Source of the DNA: Spirochaetaceae bacterium
GTDB taxonomy: Bacteria > Spirochaetota > Spirochaetia > Treponematales > Breznakiellaceae
Direction of reading: 5' to 3'
Assembly: GCA_031255115.1 (NCBI GenBank)
Contig: JAIRTD010000182.1
Location: 1-12,572, forward strand
DNA: 12,572 nucleotides
The translations under genes and the position numbers were made by a program. The number at the start of each line of letters is the position of its first letter. Position 1 is the first letter of the stretch. The notes beneath the pieces were generated by a model. That model saw nothing but the letters and a program-made list of their open reading frames with translations. It was not told the DNA's origin and did not search any database. Below are positions 7,203 through 12,572 of this stretch, piece after piece.

Positions 7203-8137
7203 TGGAAACAAAAGAATTACGCGCGGCCTATGCGGAAACACTGATAGCCCTGGGGGCAAAGAACCCCAATATCGTCGTTCTTGAGGCAGATCTGATGAAC
7301 GCCACCGGAACAAAGGTCTTTAAGGAAGCCTATCCCGACCGCTTTATCAACGTCGGCATAGCGGAGGCGAATATGATAGGCGTTGCCTCGGGCCTTTCGG
7401 AAACAGGAAAAATCCCCTTTGCTTCAACCTTTGCCTGTTTTGCTTCCCGCAGGGATTTTGATCAGTTCTTTATCTCGGCCAATTATGCCCAGCTCAATGT
7501 CAAACTCATCGGGACCGATCCGGGCGTTACCGCCGCCTTTAACGGTGGGACCCACATGCCCTTCGAAGACCTCGCCCTCATGAGGGTCATACCCAAACTC
7601 ATCGTTGCCGAACCCTCTGATCCCAGAGTCTGCGCCGCTTTTATTGAACAGGCCGCCAGTCTCTACGGCTGCGTGTACATACGCATAGCCCGCAAGGCCG
7701 TCCCCTACCTGTACGACGAAAACGAAAAATTTGAATTCGGCAAGGCCAAACTTCTTAAACAGGGCAAGGACGTATGTTTTATGGCCCTGGGAAGCCTCAT
7801 GGTAAATGAATCCCTCAAGGCCGCCGAACTGCTTGCCGGCCAGGGCATAGACGCCGGGGTGCTGGATATACTTACCCTCAAACCCATTGACCGGGAAGCG
7901 GTCCTTGACCAGGCCGCCAAAGTCAGGGCGGTAGTTTCGGTGGAGAACCACCAGGTCATAGGCGGCCTGGGGAGCGCCATCGCCGAACTCCTTGCGGAGA
8001 ACAGCTATCAGGGCAAGTTCAAACGTGTAGGCATTCAGGACGAATTCGGCCAGGTCGGAACCCAGGACTTTTTGGTCAAGCACTACGGCCTTGACGCCGA
8101 AACCATAGCCGCCGGAACAAAGGCGCTTTTGGGTTAA
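7202..8137 (+). CDS. Transketolase, C-terminal (pyrimidine-binding) subunit
   Basis: This 311-residue protein is the second half of the split transketolase. It has the pyrimidine-binding domain and the swivel domain. FINVGIAEANMIG supplies the catalytic Glu55 that activates thiamine. ASTFACFASRRDFDQ and GVTAAFNGGTHMPFEDLALMR are family landmarks, and the C-terminal third (DILTLKPID, VVSVENHQVIGGLGSAIAE) is the transketolase C domain. Its length is typical of archaeal and bacterial split forms. GGAGG at 7191-7195 and the one-base overlap with the N subunit imply coupled, equal synthesis. The last gene of the catabolic block has no clear terminator after it, so some read-through into the his leader is possible. 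Confidence 0.9.
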   Translation: METKELRAAYAETLIALGAKNPNIVVLEADLMNATGTKVFKEAYPDRFINVGIAEANMIGVASGLSETGKIPFASTFACFASRRDFDQFFISANYAQLNVKLIGTDPGVTAAFNGGTHMPFEDLALMRVIPKLIVAEPSDPRVCAAFIEQAASLYGCVYIRIARKAVPYLYDENEKFEFGKAKLLKQGKDVCFMALGSLMVNESLKAAELLAGQGIDAGVLDILTLKPIDREAVLDQAAKVRAVVSVENHQVIGGLGSAIAELLAENSYQGKFKRVGIQDEFGQVGTQDFLVKHYGLDAETIAAGTKALLG

Positions 8138-8153
8138 ACGGCGTGGATTTGTA

Positions 8154-8182
8154 TTGACACAATGCGTATAAAAAGGTATGGT
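8154..8182 (+). promoter_or_regulatory. Candidate promoter of the his operon
   Basis: A perfect -35 box TTGACA (8154-8159) is followed after 17 bases by TATGGT (8177-8182), four of six bases of a -10 box. A start seven bases further falls on A8189, the first base of the leader-peptide ATG, so the mRNA might be leaderless. A better-looking TATAAA at 8167-8172 has no matching -35 at proper distance. Confidence 0.5.
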
Positions 8183-8188
8183 TTTTCC

Positions 8189-8251
8189 ATGAAACGGATT
8201 TTTGTGCCCGGACATCACCATCATCACGGATTTTTCATCTGGCAGGCATAG
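8189..8251 (+). CDS. hisL: his operon leader peptide (attenuator peptide)
   Basis: A 20-codon frame encodes MKRIFVPG, then five consecutive histidines (codons at 8213-8227, mixed CAT and CAC), then GFFIWQA and TAG. It lies just upstream of a strong terminator and of hisG. It matches the role of E. coli hisL, whose peptide has seven His in a row. The peptide is a histidine sensor: with little charged tRNA-His, a ribosome stalls on the His codons and favours antitermination. ATG 8189 is chosen as start. An in-frame ATG at 8162 would give 30 codons but lies inside the promoter spacer. Shine-Dalgarno support is poor: AAGG at 8173-8176 is 12 bases away, and it would not be transcribed if the mRNA starts at 8189. 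Confidence 0.88.
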   Translation: MKRIFVPGHHHHHGFFIWQA

Positions 8252-8300
8252 GATCCGGCGCCTGAAAGGCGCTGTAAACGGTAATCAGGCCGTGGATTCC
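8251..8300 (+). promoter_or_regulatory. Candidate antiterminator of the his attenuator
   Basis: The segment from the leader stop codon (8251-8265) can pair with 8285-8300, which includes the whole 5' arm of the terminator. Gcctga (8260-8265) pairs with tcaggc (8285-8290), extended outward by 8258-8259 with 8292-8293, tcc (8254-8256) with gga (8294-8296) and gga (8251-8253) with tcc (8298-8300), with three single-base bulges. Forming it excludes the terminator. A ribosome stalled on the His codons leaves it free; one at the stop codon covers its 5' arm. A local hairpin 8256-8274 competes with it. Confidence 0.65.
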
Positions 8301-8321
8301 TATGGAGTCCACGGCTTTTTT
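8289..8321 (+). terminator. his attenuator terminator
   Basis: A 12-bp stem (8289-8300 with 8304-8315, one G-T wobble) around a three-base loop is followed at once by six T (8316-8321). It is located 37 bases after the leader-peptide stop and about 190 before hisG, so it must be overcome for his expression. Together with the leader peptide and the alternative pairing upstream it forms a complete attenuator. Confidence 0.92.
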
Positions 8322-8348
8322 ATTCGTGGCGAAGGTTTAATACCCCGC
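8322..8348 (+). repeat. 27-nt direct repeat, copy 1
   Basis: This segment, starting attcgtggcg and ending ataccccgc, recurs exactly at 8450-8476, 128 bases later. It begins right after the T-tract of the attenuator terminator. It contains aggtttaatacc (8333-8344), whose exact reverse complement is at 8384-8395, allowing a 12-bp stem that encloses a small gaacc/ggttc hairpin (8350-8362). Confidence 0.85.
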
Positions 8349-8449
8349 CGAACCTGCGGTTCAAACTCTGCCGCGGTTATAAAGGTATTAAACCTGAGTC
8401 CAAAACCTGATGAGAACAACAACCGCGTGGCTCTGCCGCACGGTTGTTG
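8349..8449 (+). other. Structured spacer between the repeats, no gene seen
   Basis: This 101-base spacer holds the inverted 12-mer ggtattaaacct (8384-8395), two copies of ctctgccgc (8366-8374 and 8431-8439), and a strong hairpin at 8417-8449 (9 bp caacaaccg/cggttgttg plus 4 inner pairs). That hairpin stands at the same place relative to repeat copy 2 as the terminator hairpin does to copy 1, but ends in TTGTTG rather than TTTTTT. It may be a decayed duplicate. A frame is open across parts of it, but it resembles no protein. Confidence 0.6.
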
Positions 8450-8476
8450 ATTCGTGGCGAAGGTTTAATACCCCGC
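8450..8476 (+). repeat. 27-nt direct repeat, copy 2
   Basis: Exact copy of 8322-8348. Its 12-mer (8461-8472) can pair with the same complement at 8384-8395, so copies 1 and 2 compete for one partner. It is followed by a short tandem repeat cccgcgcaag (8472-8481 and 8486-8495) and then the hisG ribosome binding site. Confidence 0.85.
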
Positions 8477-8510
8477 GCAAGAAAACCCGCGCAAGGGACA
8501 AGGAGTGGTT

Positions 8511-9365
8511 ATGGGCAAACTGAGGATTTTGATTCCAAAGGGCAGGATATACGATAATGTGTCGCGGCTCTTTTCCGACGCGGGAATTCAGATGAGCCTT
8601 GCGGACCGTACCTACAGGCCCCGCCTGGCTGTCCCCTGGCTTGACGCAAAAATCATGAAGCCCCAGAACGTGGGCGAGCTTCTTGAACTGGGGAGCCATG
8701 ACGCGGGATTTACCGGGCTTGACTGGATACAGGAATCAGGCGCGGACATCGAAGAACTTATGGACCTGGGCTTTGACAAGGTTCGCATAGTCGCCGCGGT
8801 TCCTGCCGGTAAAAGCGTTGATGAACTTAAAACGCGCACCCTTGTGGTTGCCACCGAATATGTAAATATAGCCGGGGCCTGGCTTGACCGCGCGGGCTAC
8901 CGCTACCGTATTGTACGCACCTACGGGGCCACAGAGGTTTTTCCTCCTGATGACGCGGACATGATTATCGACAATACCTCATCAGGGCAAACCCTCAAAG
9001 ACAACGGCCTCCGTATCCTGGACACCATACTCGAATCTTCCACCCGTTTTGTCGCTTCCCGGGCTGCCCTTGCGGACAGCGAAAAGCGGGGCCAGATAGA
9101 AGAGCTGGTCATGCTTTTTAAGGCAGTCCTTGAGGGCAGGGACAAGGTAATGCTTGAGATGAATGTTTCCAAAGAACGCTTTGACGCCCTTATCGCGGCG
9201 CTCCCGGCCATGCGGAGCCCCACTGTCGCGCCCCTGTACGGCGAAGCGGGCTTTGCGGTAAAAATCGCCGTGCCAAAAAACGAGGTTCCTGTTTTAATTT
9301 CAAAATTAAAAAAATTCGGCGCTGCGGATATTGTAGAATACGAACTAAGGAAGGTAGTGCCATGA
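8511..9365 (+). CDS. hisG: ATP phosphoribosyltransferase, long form
   Basis: This 284-residue enzyme catalyses the first, committed step of histidine synthesis: ATP plus PRPP to phosphoribosyl-ATP. The N-terminus LRILIPKGRIYDNV and the PRPP-binding loop DNTSSGQTLKDNG (154-166) are diagnostic. The C-terminal part (about 211-284, including MNVSKERFDALIAALPAMRSP, here spanning two stretches, and GFAVKIAVP) is the regulatory domain of the long form, which binds histidine for feedback inhibition. No HisZ partner is therefore needed. ATG 8511 with AAGGAG (8500-8505) is preferred over in-frame GTG 8505. It is the first structural gene after the attenuator, and its stop overlaps hisB by 4 bp (ATGA). 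Confidence 0.95.
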   Translation: MGKLRILIPKGRIYDNVSRLFSDAGIQMSLADRTYRPRLAVPWLDAKIMKPQNVGELLELGSHDAGFTGLDWIQESGADIEELMDLGFDKVRIVAAVPAGKSVDELKTRTLVVATEYVNIAGAWLDRAGYRYRIVRTYGATEVFPPDDADMIIDNTSSGQTLKDNGLRILDTILESSTRFVASRAALADSEKRGQIEELVMLFKAVLEGRDKVMLEMNVSKERFDALIAALPAMRSPTVAPLYGEAGFAVKIAVPKNEVPVLISKLKKFGAADIVEYELRKVVP

Positions 9366-9979
9366 GAAAAACCCAAATCGAACGAAACACCAAAGAAACT
9401 GGCATCTCCATAAGCCTTGATCTTGACGGTCAGGGAGAGGCAAAACTCGATATACCCATAGGCTTTATGACCCATATGCTCAATACCTTTGCAAAGCACG
9501 GCCTCTTTGACCTTGAGATACACGCCTCTGGCGATCTGGAAGTAGACCAGCACCACCTTGTCGAAGATATGGGCATAGTCCTTGGCCAATGTTTTACCAA
9601 AGCCCTGGGAGAGAAGCGGGGCATACGGCGGGTAGGGAGCTGCCTGTATCCCATGGACGAAACCCTTGCCCGCGCTGCCGTTGACCTGTCGGGGAGACCC
9701 TTTCTGGTGTTCGAAGCGGGCCTTTCAACAGCGCCGCTGGTATTCAAAAGCCCGGGCGGAACCGAAGGGAGTTTTCAGACCGATGTAATTGAAGATTTTT
9801 GGCAAGGCTTTGCAACTAACGCCTGCTGCGCCCTTCATCTTGAAATCATCAGGGGAAGAAGCGATCACCACAAAATAGAAGCCCTCTTTAAGGCCGCCGC
9901 CAGAGCCCTCAGGGACGCCTGCGAAATCGACCGCCGGGCCCCTGACTTTATTCCCTCCACCAAGGGCGCCATAGCATGA
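9362..9979 (+). CDS. hisB: Imidazoleglycerol-phosphate dehydratase
   Basis: This 205-residue, single-function enzyme dehydrates imidazole glycerol phosphate to imidazole acetol phosphate. The Mn-binding histidine motifs are visible: GFMTHML (His38), VDQHHLVED (His64, His65, Glu68) and SDHHKIEALFKA (His169, His170, Glu173), plus LHLE (His159). Two positions depart from the most common form: Thr37 where GFLDHM has Asp, and Leu66 where DHHTVED has Thr. There is no HisN phosphatase domain, unlike the fused E. coli HisB. Length is usual for the monofunctional family. AAGGAAGG lies at 9347-9354, and both ends overlap neighbours by 4 bp, implying translational coupling from hisG to hisH. Confidence 0.94.
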   Translation: MRKTQIERNTKETGISISLDLDGQGEAKLDIPIGFMTHMLNTFAKHGLFDLEIHASGDLEVDQHHLVEDMGIVLGQCFTKALGEKRGIRRVGSCLYPMDETLARAAVDLSGRPFLVFEAGLSTAPLVFKSPGGTEGSFQTDVIEDFWQGFATNACCALHLEIIRGRSDHHKIEALFKAAARALRDACEIDRRAPDFIPSTKGAIA

Positions 9980-10611
9980 GCGAAAAAGCCATGACCGGCG
10001 TTATCGACTATGGCGCGGGAAACCTCGGTTCGGTGATGAACGCCCTGGCCCGGCTTTCTATCCCCGCCCGCTTTGTCCAGGGCCCGGAAGAACTCAATCC
10101 CCGCCTGTTCCGGGGAATCATACTTCCCGGCGACGGACACTTTGCCACAGCCGCAGAATCACTTGGCGGCTCAGGCTATGCCGAGGCGATTAAGGACTGG
10201 ATTAAGGCCGACAGACCCTTTCTTGGCATCTGCCTCGGCCTTCAACTTCTCTTTGAAAAATCAGAAGAAGCCCCTCCCAAAGACGGCAAAGAAACGCCGG
10301 GCTTTGCCCTTATCCGCGGCGAAGTAAAAAAATTCCCCGGCCGCAAGGTTCCCCAAATAGGCTGGAACCAGACCAGGATAAAAAAGAATTCCCGCCTCTT
10401 TGCCGGTTTTACCGGGACTGAATTTTTTTATTATATTCATTCCTATTATGTTGAACCGCTCGATACCGCCGACATCGCGGCAGAGGCCGACTACTATCTC
10501 AGCTACTGTTCCGCCGTGGAACGCGGCGCCCTTGCGGCGGTTCAGTTTCATCCCGAAAAATCCGGGGCTGCGGGACTAAAGCTTTTAGAGAACTGGAGTA
10601 GATTTTGTTGA
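9976..10611 (+). CDS. hisH: Imidazole glycerol phosphate synthase, glutamine amidotransferase subunit
   Basis: This 211-residue class I glutaminase provides ammonia to HisF. The nucleophile is Cys86 in FLGICLGLQLLFE, and the other triad residues are His192 and Glu194 in VQFHPEKSG. The start VIDYGAGNLGSVMNAL and the oxyanion-strand motif PGDGHF are typical. ATG 9976 overlaps the hisB stop (ATGA); a second in-frame ATG at 9991 would also leave a complete domain. The last codons (GLKLLENWSRFC) are encoded by a segment that occurs again just before hisF, apparently because of an insertion that changed the hisH tail from an ancestral ending into RFC. Confidence 0.94.
   Translation: MSEKAMTGVIDYGAGNLGSVMNALARLSIPARFVQGPEELNPRLFRGIILPGDGHFATAAESLGGSGYAEAIKDWIKADRPFLGICLGLQLLFEKSEEAPPKDGKETPGFALIRGEVKKFPGRKVPQIGWNQTRIKKNSRLFAGFTGTEFFYYIHSYYVEPLDTADIAAEADYYLSYCSAVERGALAAVQFHPEKSGAAGLKLLENWSRFC
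10570..10601 (+). repeat. Direct repeat of the hisH 3' end, copy 1 (within hisH)
   Basis: This 32-base segment matches 10671-10702 with one mismatch (A10575 against G10676); the inner 26 bases 10576-10601 are identical to 10677-10702. It encodes the hisH C-terminus (AGLKLLENWS). Confidence 0.9.
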
Positions 10612-10670
10612 GCCCCACGCCGTGTTACATTATCGCGTTGACCCGCTCGCCGGCTCGCGGGCTGCTATTG
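10602..10670 (+). other. Short insertion between hisH and hisF
   Basis: About 69 bases, including the last hisH codons and stop, separate the two copies of the hisH tail. The piece contains ttgagcccc (10608-10616) facing ggggct (10673-10678), and a GC-rich near-palindrome cccgc (10642-10646) and gcggg (10657-10661) around gccggc. No T-tract follows, so it is not a normal terminator. No gene is visible. A 10-mer ccggctcgcg (10650-10659) also appears in reverse at 6250-6259, perhaps by chance. Confidence 0.6.
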
Positions 10671-10702
10671 GCGGGGCTAAAGCTTTTAGAGAACTGGAGT
10701 AG
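10671..10702 (+). repeat. Direct repeat of the hisH 3' end, copy 2 (carries the hisF ribosome binding site)
   Basis: Second copy of 10570-10601. Its GGAG (10696-10699) lies eight bases before the hisF ATG and is the only good ribosome binding site there. Read in the hisH frame it continues through hisF's start to TAA at 10716-10718 (ENWSSFYAG), giving a likely ancestral hisH end that overlapped hisF by 11 bases. Confidence 0.85.
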
Positions 10703-10707
10703 TTTTT

Positions 10708-11484
10708 ATGCAGGCTAAACGGATAATCCCCTGCCTTGATGTTGACGACGGCAGAGTGGTCAAGGGCGTCAAGTTTAAGGGAATCAGGGATGCCGGAGAC
10801 CCGGCCGAACTTGCCCGGCGCTACAATGAACAGGGCGCGGATGAACTTACCTTCCTCGACATAGGCGCTTCCTACAAGAGCAGGGCCATTCTCATGGACC
10901 TGGTGCGCAAGGTTGCAAAGGAAGTTTTTATCCCCCTCTGCGTGGGCGGCGGCATACGAAGCGTTGACGATATGCGCGAGGCAATGAACGCCGGCGCCGA
11001 CAAAGTATCGGTGTGTACCTCGGCGCTCACCAATCCCCCGCTGTTATACGACATGGCCAGGGCCTACGGAAACCAGTGCGTAGTTCTTTCCCTGGACGCC
11101 AAACGCGCGGGCCTGGATAAAGACGGCAGACCGTTCTGGCACGCCTATGCCAAGGGCGGCAGGGAAGATACCGGAAGAGACGCCATAGCCTGGGCCGTCG
11201 AAGCCGTTGAACGGGGAGCCGGAGAAATCCTCCTCAATTCGATAGATTCAGACGGAACCGGCGGAGGTTATGACAAGGAACTAACCAGGGCCGTCATGGC
11301 CGCGGTGCCGGTTCCGGTCATCGCCTCAGGCGGCGCGGGCTCGCTCGAACAGATAGCCCATATACTCGAAGGCGACGAAGGCGCCGACGCGGCCCTGGTG
11401 GCTTCAATGCTGCACTTTGGCCAAACTTCAATACAGGAAATAAAAAAACACATTGAATCAAAAGGCGTAGTCGTGCGATGGTAA
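10708..11484 (+). CDS. hisF: Imidazole glycerol phosphate synthase, cyclase subunit
   Basis: This 258-residue TIM barrel uses ammonia from HisH to convert PRFAR into imidazole glycerol phosphate and AICAR. The catalytic acids are at the canonical numbers: Asp11 in IIPCLDVDDGRVVKG and Asp130 in VVLSLDAKR. Phosphate-binding elements CVGGGIRS, NSIDSDGTGGGYD and IASGGAGS are visible. The usual FLDITAS reads FLDIGAS, and the loop DRDGT reads DSDGT, both mild variants. Length is usual. It is the only his gene here not closely joined to its upstream neighbour, owing to the insertion at the hisH end, and it depends on the repeated hisH segment for ribosome binding. Confidence 0.95.
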   Translation: MQAKRIIPCLDVDDGRVVKGVKFKGIRDAGDPAELARRYNEQGADELTFLDIGASYKSRAILMDLVRKVAKEVFIPLCVGGGIRSVDDMREAMNAGADKVSVCTSALTNPPLLYDMARAYGNQCVVLSLDAKRAGLDKDGRPFWHAYAKGGREDTGRDAIAWAVEAVERGAGEILLNSIDSDGTGGGYDKELTRAVMAAVPVPVIASGGAGSLEQIAHILEGDEGADAALVASMLHFGQTSIQEIKKHIESKGVVVRW

Positions 11485-11503
11485 ACTGCGCGGGGAGGAA
11501 TAA

Positions 11504-12572
11504 ATGGTAATAGCGTCCATAGACATTCAGGGCGGCAAAGTCGTCCAGCTAAAACAGGGCTCGCAGCTCATGCTCCAAAGGGACAATCCCCTGGAACTCA
11601 TCAGGGAATTTGACCGTTACGGCGAAGTTGCGGTCATCGACCTTGACGCCGCCATGGGAAAGGGGCACAACGAAGAACTGATAAAGCCCCTGCTCCGCCT
11701 TGGCCGGTGCAGAGTGGGCGGCGGCATACGGAGCGTTGAACGGGCCAAAGAACTGGTAAGCCTTGGCGCGTCTAAAATCATCGTAGGTTCGGCGGCGTTC
11801 AGGGACAGCGCCGCAAACGGAACCGGCGGCTTTGCCCCCCAGCTTTCATGGCTCGAAAAACTCGCCGCCGCAATAGGCCGCGAAAGAATCATCATTGCCA
11901 TTGACGCAAGAGACGGCGAAATCACCGTTGACGGCTGGAAAACAGCCACCGCCCTTCCCCTGGTTCAAAGCGCCAAAACCCTCGAACCCTATACATCAGA
12001 ATTCCTTTTTACCTGCGTCGAGCGCGAAGGAACCCTGAGCGGCATTGACCTCGACCGCGTGCGGGAACTAAGAGCGGCAATCTCCTGCGGCCTCACTGTC
12101 GCGGGCGGCGTTTCTACCCTGGACGAAATCAGCGCCCTGGCAAAACTCGGCTGCGACGTACAACTCGGCATGGCCCTCTACACCGGCAAGATAGACCTTT
12201 CCGCCGCCTTTATCGCCTCCCTCAACTGGGAAAAGGTCGCCTCTATGGTTGCGCCTAACCAAGCGTCATCAGTTGCGCCTAACGGGGCACAGGCCGCCCC
12301 CGCCCTGCTTCCATTGATAGCCCAGTCGCCTGACGGCCAGGTCCTTATGACCGGCTATACCGATAGAGAAGCGTTAGCCGAAACCTTCGTCCGGGGCAAA
12401 CTCTGCTTTCACAGCCGCACCAGGAACAAACTCTGGATGAAAGGCGAAAGTTCAGGCAATACCCTTACCCTCCTTCGCCTCAGGGCCGACTGCGACCGGG
12501 ACGCCCTGCTTGCCACGGTGATACCCCGGGGCCCGGTCTGCCATACCGGCGCGTATAGCTGCTTTGAAACAG
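11504..12572 (+). CDS. hisA: HisA-HisI fusion: ProFAR isomerase and phosphoribosyl-AMP cyclohydrolase (3' end missing)
   Basis: The frame is open from ATG 11504 (GGGGAGGAA just upstream, 11492-11500) to the window end, 356 codons, with no stop. Residues 1-245 are HisA, the TIM-barrel isomerase of ProFAR to PRFAR: IDIQGGKVVQLKQG with catalytic Asp7, VGGGIRSVE, IAIDARDG with Asp134, EREGTLSG and VAGGVSTLDE. After a linker (about 246-267, VAPN occurring twice) the chain continues as HisI, phosphoribosyl-AMP cyclohydrolase: MTGYTDREAL, FHSRTRNKLWMKGESSGNT, then ADCDRDALL and GPVCHTGAYSCFE. These carry the zinc ligands Cys330, Cys346, Cys353 and the metal-binding Asp329, 331, 333. HisI is usually separate or fused to HisE, so a HisE domain may follow beyond the window. 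The joined enzymes catalyse consecutive steps. HisA has EREG where many have DRDG. Confidence 0.9.
   Translation, partial: MVIASIDIQGGKVVQLKQGSQLMLQRDNPLELIREFDRYGEVAVIDLDAAMGKGHNEELIKPLLRLGRCRVGGGIRSVERAKELVSLGASKIIVGSAAFRDSAANGTGGFAPQLSWLEKLAAAIGRERIIIAIDARDGEITVDGWKTATALPLVQSAKTLEPYTSEFLFTCVEREGTLSGIDLDRVRELRAAISCGLTVAGGVSTLDEISALAKLGCDVQLGMALYTGKIDLSAAFIASLNWEKVASMVAPNQASSVAPNGAQAAPALLPLIAQSPDGQVLMTGYTDREALAETFVRGKLCFHSRTRNKLWMKGESSGNTLTLLRLRADCDRDALLATVIPRGPVCHTGAYSCFET

Follow-up and report, generated by a model that had tools for sequence, protein, structure and literature searches.

Leader-peptide attenuation is a textbook mechanism that has been described mainly in Proteobacteria, and the E. 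coli hisL leader is an ordinary one, led by a Shine-Dalgarno (SD) sequence. In hisL of E. coli and Salmonella (Rfam family RF00514, His_leader), a short leader peptide with a run of histidines precedes hisG and is accompanied by overlapping alternative hairpins and an intrinsic terminator. The spirochaete locus described here shares this layout and the same inferred logic, but differs from hisL in that the predicted promoter of most spirochaete leaders ends 6-7 nt ahead of the AUG, in that an SD sequence is lacking, and in that the predicted antiterminator is a three-way junction. In mycobacteria, short leaderless ORFs with tandem Cys codons as the sensing codons control the downstream operon; they resemble the design predicted here in being leaderless sensing ORFs and differ from it in the amino acid, cysteine, and in their actinobacterial host.

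Attenuation by leader peptides has also been reported in Firmicutes (PMC9413887) and Actinobacteria (PMC3890552). By comparative genomics, His-leader attenuators were placed before the his operons of the Bacillus cereus group, Eubacteriales and Erysipelotrichales (PMC9413887). Like the leader studied here, these contain three to five tandem His codons, a terminator and an antiterminator, but they belong to a different phylum, and the available text of that study mentions neither a leaderless design nor spirochaetes. The original prediction for our locus had assigned the mechanism mainly to Proteobacteria and T-boxes to most Firmicutes; because of the His attenuators of some Firmicutes (PMC9413887), this was too narrow, the mechanism being already not confined to Proteobacteria. 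In Sinorhizobium meliloti, the attenuator leader RNA of trpL (rnTrpL) starts at the AUG of the leader ORF; this system differs from ours in responding to Trp instead of His and in its non-spirochaete host, and, once released, its leader RNA and its peptide reportedly act in trans (PMC7298713). Corynebacterium glutamicum has leaderless his transcripts (PMC3896937), as well as leader peptides for trp, leu, ilv and aro genes (PMC3890552). In Spirochaetales, short leader genes have been counted by distance, with no his attenuator in the available part of that account (PMC4833913). Among the papers listed by our literature searches, none was recognised as describing a spirochaete his attenuator, and the survey of Lopatovskaya et al. 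2010 could hold one.

We analysed a stretch of 12,572 nt (hereafter the window) from a draft genome of 1.9 Mb that is 74% complete. The hisG loci nearest to that of the window belong to a metagenome-assembled genome (MAG) labelled Spirochaetaceae bacterium (87% identity), to Breznakiella homolactica (80%) and to a MAG labelled Gracilinema caldarium (76%), and MAGs labelled Treponema are also among the closest. These neighbours bear out the spirochaete host that the original prediction had allowed for. Breznakiella is placed in the Breznakiellaceae, Treponematales, Spirochaetota, and the host family is probably Breznakiellaceae. The locus comprises the following features:

8154-8182, + strand: sigma70 promoter with TTGACA (8154-8159), a 17-nt spacer and TATGGT (8177-8182), from a promoter scan and the comparison with relatives
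8189, + strand: predicted transcription start at the A of the leader AUG, placed by the promoter spacing
8189-8251, + strand: leader peptide ORF of 20 codons, MKRIFVPGHHHHHGFFIWQA followed by the stop codon; relatives also have His-rich leaders
8195-8208, + strand: region 1, the 5′ arm of the 1:2 hairpin, from folding, with weaker comparative support
8213-8227, + strand: five adjacent His codons inside the leader ORF, the predicted stall site
8245-8257, + strand: region 2, which overlaps the leader stop codon and pairs with region 1 or region 3, from comparison and folding
8258-8272, + strand: small hairpin between regions 2 and 3 in the predicted three-way junction (79.2% of alignment cells paired)
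8278-8293, + strand: helper hairpin ACGGU:GCCGU, predicted in the antiterminator, its 3′ arm shared with the terminator stem (92.8% of cells paired)
8294-8304, + strand: stretch of region 3 forming the antiterminator pairing with region 2, from comparison and folding
8287-8321, + strand: intrinsic terminator, the 3:4 hairpin plus T6, from a terminator scan and the alignment
8511-9365, + strand: hisG (PF01634 and PF08029), first gene of the presumed regulated operon
9362-12571, + strand: hisB, hisH, hisF and a hisA-hisI fusion truncated at the end of the window, all presumably transcribed together with hisG

The 20-codon peptide with five adjacent His codons and the downstream hisG agree with the original prediction. 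So does the presence of a hairpin followed by T6 (8316-8321), although the scan gave a terminator-like stem of 14 pairs (8287-8317) instead of the 12 bp proposed; the sigma70 promoter, the SD absence, the antiterminator pairing and the apparently leaderless design go beyond it. The SD sequence of hisG, AAGGAG, lies at 8500-8505, and the transketolase genes upstream end at 8137, codirectional with the leader. Folding of the leader region was more stable than in 200 out of 200 dinucleotide shuffles (z -4.53). A chance ORF was ruled out, as none of 200 simulated windows of equal length (order-1 Markov) had a five-His run contained in an ORF. Terminator and promoter scans of a 421-nt stretch gave one hit each, against shuffle averages of 0.6 and 0.4; because these scans are not significant alone, the case rests on conservation. 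We read the locus as a ribosome-mediated attenuator that controls transcription of the his operon and has a leaderless, or nearly leaderless, leader mRNA; we give this reading a probability of about 0.88.

Some further observations concern the surroundings of the leader. The hisA-hisI fusion ORF (11504-12571) combines a HisA-type domain (PF00977) with a following PRA-CH domain (PF01502) and is truncated by the window end. Between the terminator and hisG there is a dispersed repeat, with a 33-nt direct repeat at 8316-8348 and 8444-8476 and, in the same stretch (8316-8476), the inverted arms AGGTTTAATACC and GGTATTAAACCT; genome G000 holds 20 further partial matches to it. The distance from leader to hisG is 323 nt in the window, compared with 123-237 nt in 28 of 32 related places examined.

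To follow the leader in relatives, we compared the best 80 of 219 confirmed hisG loci, about a third of which had His-rich leaders in a first scan. Twenty-five leaders were aligned from the leader ATG to the T-run (alignment A1), and the alignment was turned into a covariance model (R1). This model matched the coding strand of 32 of the 80 loci, 24 of the 32 being sequences from which it had been built; it matched L015 and L054, neither of which is in A1, and it also gave five weak reverse-strand matches, to the palindrome. Among 145 genomes of the family, 54 had a match at E up to 1e-6, at one place each except for G496 (two), a figure that describes distribution and is not an independent test because many of these genomes probably hold the source loci of R1. 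Thirty-two of the resulting 55 places were examined, with the leader start sought 60-600 nt upstream of hisG, and all of them were found 123-395 nt upstream of the gene. In 29 of these places a TTGAC stands 35-37 nt upstream of where the leader begins, and in one it stands at 43 nt; it was absent from two, one of which starts at a contig end. The expectation of the original prediction that related leaders would preserve the His run and the hairpins thus held in large part: the His run and the terminator recur, and the 2:3 and 3:4 pairings are conserved, but the leader is not present in all relatives and the 1:2 pairing is weaker. The two matches of G496 (C208:406-570 and C190:5475-5603), one of which (L279) lies 207 nt before hisG, possibly reflect two his operons or a mixed bin.

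Promoter position was analysed in 26 leaders whose upstream sequence was long enough, the one in the window and those of 25 loci (L087, whose contig begins 2 nt before the leader, was left out). With the start most like MKR/MNR chosen where a leader had several in-frame starts, which can tighten the distances, the distance from TTGAC to the start was 35-37 nt in 24 of the 26 leaders and 43 nt in one, and one leader had no TTGAC. The extended motif TTGAC-N17-19-TANNNT was present in 25 of the 26 and ended 6, 7, 8 or 12 nt before the ATG in 18, 5, 1 and 1 cases, respectively; in the window, 6 nt separate the -10 hexamer from the leader ATG. The exceptions were L063, with 12 nt between -10 and ATG, and L048, without a recognised promoter. 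The base at -1 is a pyrimidine in 25/26 leaders, and an SD-like tetramer precedes only one of the 26, compared with 23/26 hisG starts of the same loci. Outside this set, the whole R1 matches L022, L028, L076 and L080 have TTGAC 35-36 nt before the ATG, and a fifth, the decayed L037, which has lost its start codon, does not show such spacing. Because the promoter adjoins the AUG and SD-like motifs are nearly absent, the leader mRNA is probably leaderless, and we infer that transcription would start at the AUG or within a few nt of it. Mapping in Leptospira interrogans, also a spirochaete, gave about 440 mRNAs whose 5′-UTRs are shorter than 10 nt (PMC5243855); therefore, spirochaetes can have such RNAs. 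The apparently leaderless design is a more unusual feature than the attenuator itself.

An unlikely alternative is a classical his attenuator with an ordinary 5′-UTR, in which the -35/-10 match would be spurious and transcription would start upstream, for instance by read-through from the transketolase genes. The constant distance between TTGAC and leader start over the family and the order, the absence of an SD-like motif from 25 of the 26 leaders and the different nearest upstream ORFs found at many leader loci all argue against it, even though the start site is a predicted one, the gene ending at 8137 is codirectional and a promoter of such quality occurs 0.4 times by chance per 421-nt shuffle.

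The switch was examined by comparing the duplex energies of each locus's own regions with those of regions swapped between the 25 loci, using 5000 permutations. Own regions paired better than swapped ones in the 2:3 duplex (-17.6 versus -15.2 kcal/mol; 0/5000 permutations), in the 3:4 duplex (-24.0 versus -20.3 kcal/mol; 0/5000) and in the 1:2 duplex (-12.2 versus -11.1 kcal/mol; 73/5000), while the control pairings 1:3, 1:4 and 2:4 gave 4064, 2644 and 4982 of 5000 permutations, respectively. In the alignment, 88.4% of the antiterminator cells were paired (35-48% when slid) and 96.9% of the terminator cells (31-47% when slid), values reached by 0/500 shuffles in both cases. Changes on both sides of a pair were found in 15 antiterminator cells, versus 6.4 in shuffles, and in 22 terminator cells, versus 7.0 (0/500 each), the antiterminator covariation tests covering own-family leaders. 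Counted by pair, the antiterminator does not stand out, with four pairs changed on both sides versus 3.0 in shuffles (146/500) and a number of pair types reached by 223/500; for the terminator, the pairs changed on both sides were matched by 86/500 shuffles and the pair types by 21/500. The 1:2 hairpin is predicted in the window, with 88% of its cells paired; because 118/500 shuffles reach this percentage, it is the weakest part of the switch.

These pairings bear on a second alternative, namely that the hairpin is a plain terminator of the upstream unit next to a chance ORF, with no regulation. The terminator is strong by itself, as that reading would have it, but the conserved His-rich leaders with fixed promoter spacing, the covariation of region 2 with region 3 and a ribosome spacing that fits make it very improbable. 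A terminator serving the upstream gene only was ruled out by the own-locus 2:3 and 3:4 pairing together with the antiterminator covariation.

In the attenuator reading, the predicted antiterminator is a three-way junction composed of an outer helix (8247-8256 with 8294-8304), the small hairpin and the helper hairpin. When the first 38 or 51 nt were blocked and the transcript ended at region 3, the minimum-energy fold was the antiterminator; the full leader with a ribosome at the stop codon folded into the terminator. Folding without a ribosome when region 3 has just been made favoured 2:3 over 1:2, and therefore the 1:2 hairpin would have to win kinetically. For the whole leader, likewise, the terminator was still the best fold when a ribosome occupied the His codons, so that the switch must be kinetic. 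With a ribosome footprint size taken from general knowledge, region 2 remains free when the A site is at the first His codon in 25/25 leaders and at the last His codon in 24/25, and a ribosome at the stop codon overlaps region 2 in 25/25 leaders and covers all of it in 18.

The mechanism that we propose would operate as follows. RNA polymerase would start at the leader AUG or a few nt from it, and a ribosome would load straight on the 5′ end. When charged tRNA-His is scarce, this ribosome would stall on the five His codons, masking region 1 and leaving region 2 free, so that the 2:3 three-way junction would form as antiterminator and transcription would run on into hisGBHF-AI. When charged tRNA-His is plentiful, the ribosome would reach the stop codon inside region 2 and the 3:4 terminator would form. 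Of this scheme, the leader, the place of the promoter, the SD absence, the terminator, the antiterminator covariation and the ribosome spacing come from sequence and comparison, whereas the coupling, the site of transcription start and any histidine response are predictions. Overall, anatomy and comparison, the latter through the pairings and the ribosome spacing, support well, at the sequence level, the ribosome-mediated his attenuator that had been proposed.

In other phyla, his genes are under the control of histidine T-boxes or of the repressor HisR (PMC9413887), but a T-box or another tRNA- or protein-sensing leader with an incidental His peptide is hardly credible here, as no Rfam family, His_leader included, reaches its gathering score in the window, no T-box match was found at E up to 10 in 8100-8520, and the conserved stretch of A1 from ATG to T-run is mostly explained by leader codons plus switch regions. 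On these grounds any Rfam RNA, T-boxes included, was rejected as a candidate, with no matches in the window or in 8100-8520 and with the relatives below the RF00514 cut-off. At the RF00514 gathering score of 49 bits, none of 39 relatives matched, nor was there a match in G000; a sub-threshold match of 26 bits fell on the real leader of the relative G263.

We then considered the order as a whole, in which hisG was found in 92 of 116 genomes, and the upstream sequence covered 90 of these 92 (all but G433 and G412). A strict leader rule was applied that asks for an ORF of 8-50 aa with at least three His in seven and a TTGAC 31-39 nt before the start. Forty-two of the 90 genomes had such a leader and none of the 90 reverse strands did. 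By family, the counts were 10/27 in f1, which we infer to be the Breznakiellaceae, 4/25 in f2, 12/14 in f3, 16/23 in f4 and 0/1 in f60; a strict-rule leader was thus absent from 17/27 own-family genomes and from 21/25 genomes of f2. The TTGAC-to-start distances of the 42 leaders were 35, 36, 37, 38 and 39 nt in 7, 8, 14, 11 and 2 cases, respectively, although 31-39 nt was allowed; where an ORF had several starts the one with TTGAC in range was chosen, which can tighten these distances. When the promoter rule was dropped, 55 of the 90 genomes qualified, including 14/14 in f3, 23/23 in f4 and 8/25 in f2, some of the last looking like chance. A terminator-like hairpin followed 40 of the 42 leaders, compared with 38 of 126 shuffles, an SD-like tetramer preceded 4/42, and TANNNT was found at standard spacing in only 20/42. 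Several f4 leaders (L237, L238 and others) have two consecutive GCCGGC-rich hairpins behind them, perhaps tandem terminators. Taken together, these comparisons indicate that predicted attenuation of this kind recurs across four family-level groups of one Spirochaetota order.

Outside the order, no poly-His ORF (four His in six) was found within ~1.5 kb of hisG in the 30 loci at the top of a phylum-wide hisG search, a narrow sample in which 19 of the 30 came from one family and in which hisG need not be the first his gene. With E up to 0.01, a phylum-wide R1 search matched 53 of 392 genomes. Those at E below 1e-8 were from 7/17 own-family genomes and one f3 genome; beyond these top eight the places were weak, many of them matching the terminator end only.

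The history of the leader was explored on a quickly built hisG tree with 80 rows (the window and 79 loci, L080 being left out), of which 32 had a leader, 46 had none and two, L023 and L040, were unscored owing to short upstream sequence. The leader label required 10 changes on this tree, compared with a mean of about 25 when labels were shuffled, and 0/500 shuffles were as low; therefore, the leader is clustered but has repeatedly changed. Its presence in families f1 to f4 suggests that it is old in the order. At 33 of the 48 loci without an R1 match, a codirectional ORF of at least 100 codons, a putative gene from ORF calls, ends 6-102 nt before hisG, which suggests that the leader was lost when hisG joined another operon. 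In the leaders of L095, L085 and L022 the His codons are few or scattered. Among decayed copies, L037 lacks the start codon and the promoter, and L076 and L080 lack the early stop. The sparse-His leaders and the broken L037 look like stages of loss.

A broader reading, which we put forward tentatively and regard as somewhat short of an even chance, is that a His sensor in which a ribosome loads onto the free 5′ end of a leaderless mRNA still being made has been retained in one order of spirochaetes ever since that order arose. With region 1 at transcript positions of about +7 to +20, the promoter position would be part of the sensor, and the switch would read the capacity for leaderless initiation together with tRNA-His charging. 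The terminated leader RNA, of ~130 nt, could moreover act in trans as a leaderless small mRNA.

Leaders rich in other amino acids were also noticed, among the 30 loci with weak R1 matches from the phylum-wide search. Outside the order, Trp runs were seen by eye in short ORFs of L099, L111, L114, L116, L117 and L118. The Trp-rich ORFs at L111:1453 and L117:623 precede genes read by eye as trpE, and that at L099:797 precedes one read in the same way as a trpB; the Trp-rich leaders come with terminators, and L111 and L117 have two consecutive terminator hairpins. Also outside the order, L098:1510 has a Tyr-rich short ORF, MIYFYYYYYYYPYG, then a terminator, and is a possible Tyr attenuator. By eye, the starts of these Trp and Tyr leaders lie further from the promoter than those of the His leaders. 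Within the order, a leaderless Trp-leader pattern was found at 17 places in 16/116 genomes, compared with four for the backwards pattern, and the places looked coding-like by eye.

What is new here, within a known class of mechanism, is thus a his attenuator predicted in spirochaetes whose leader peptide is probably read from a leaderless mRNA and whose antiterminator is predicted to be a three-way junction. Since the leader is apparently without a ribosome-binding site, ribosomes would have to initiate at a bare 5′ end for attenuation to work, and the locus would offer a natural system in which leaderless initiation can be timed against transcription. It also provides a candidate histidine-responsive control element for spirochaetes, and the Trp-rich leaders in another Spirochaetota family suggest that the mechanism there may extend beyond histidine.
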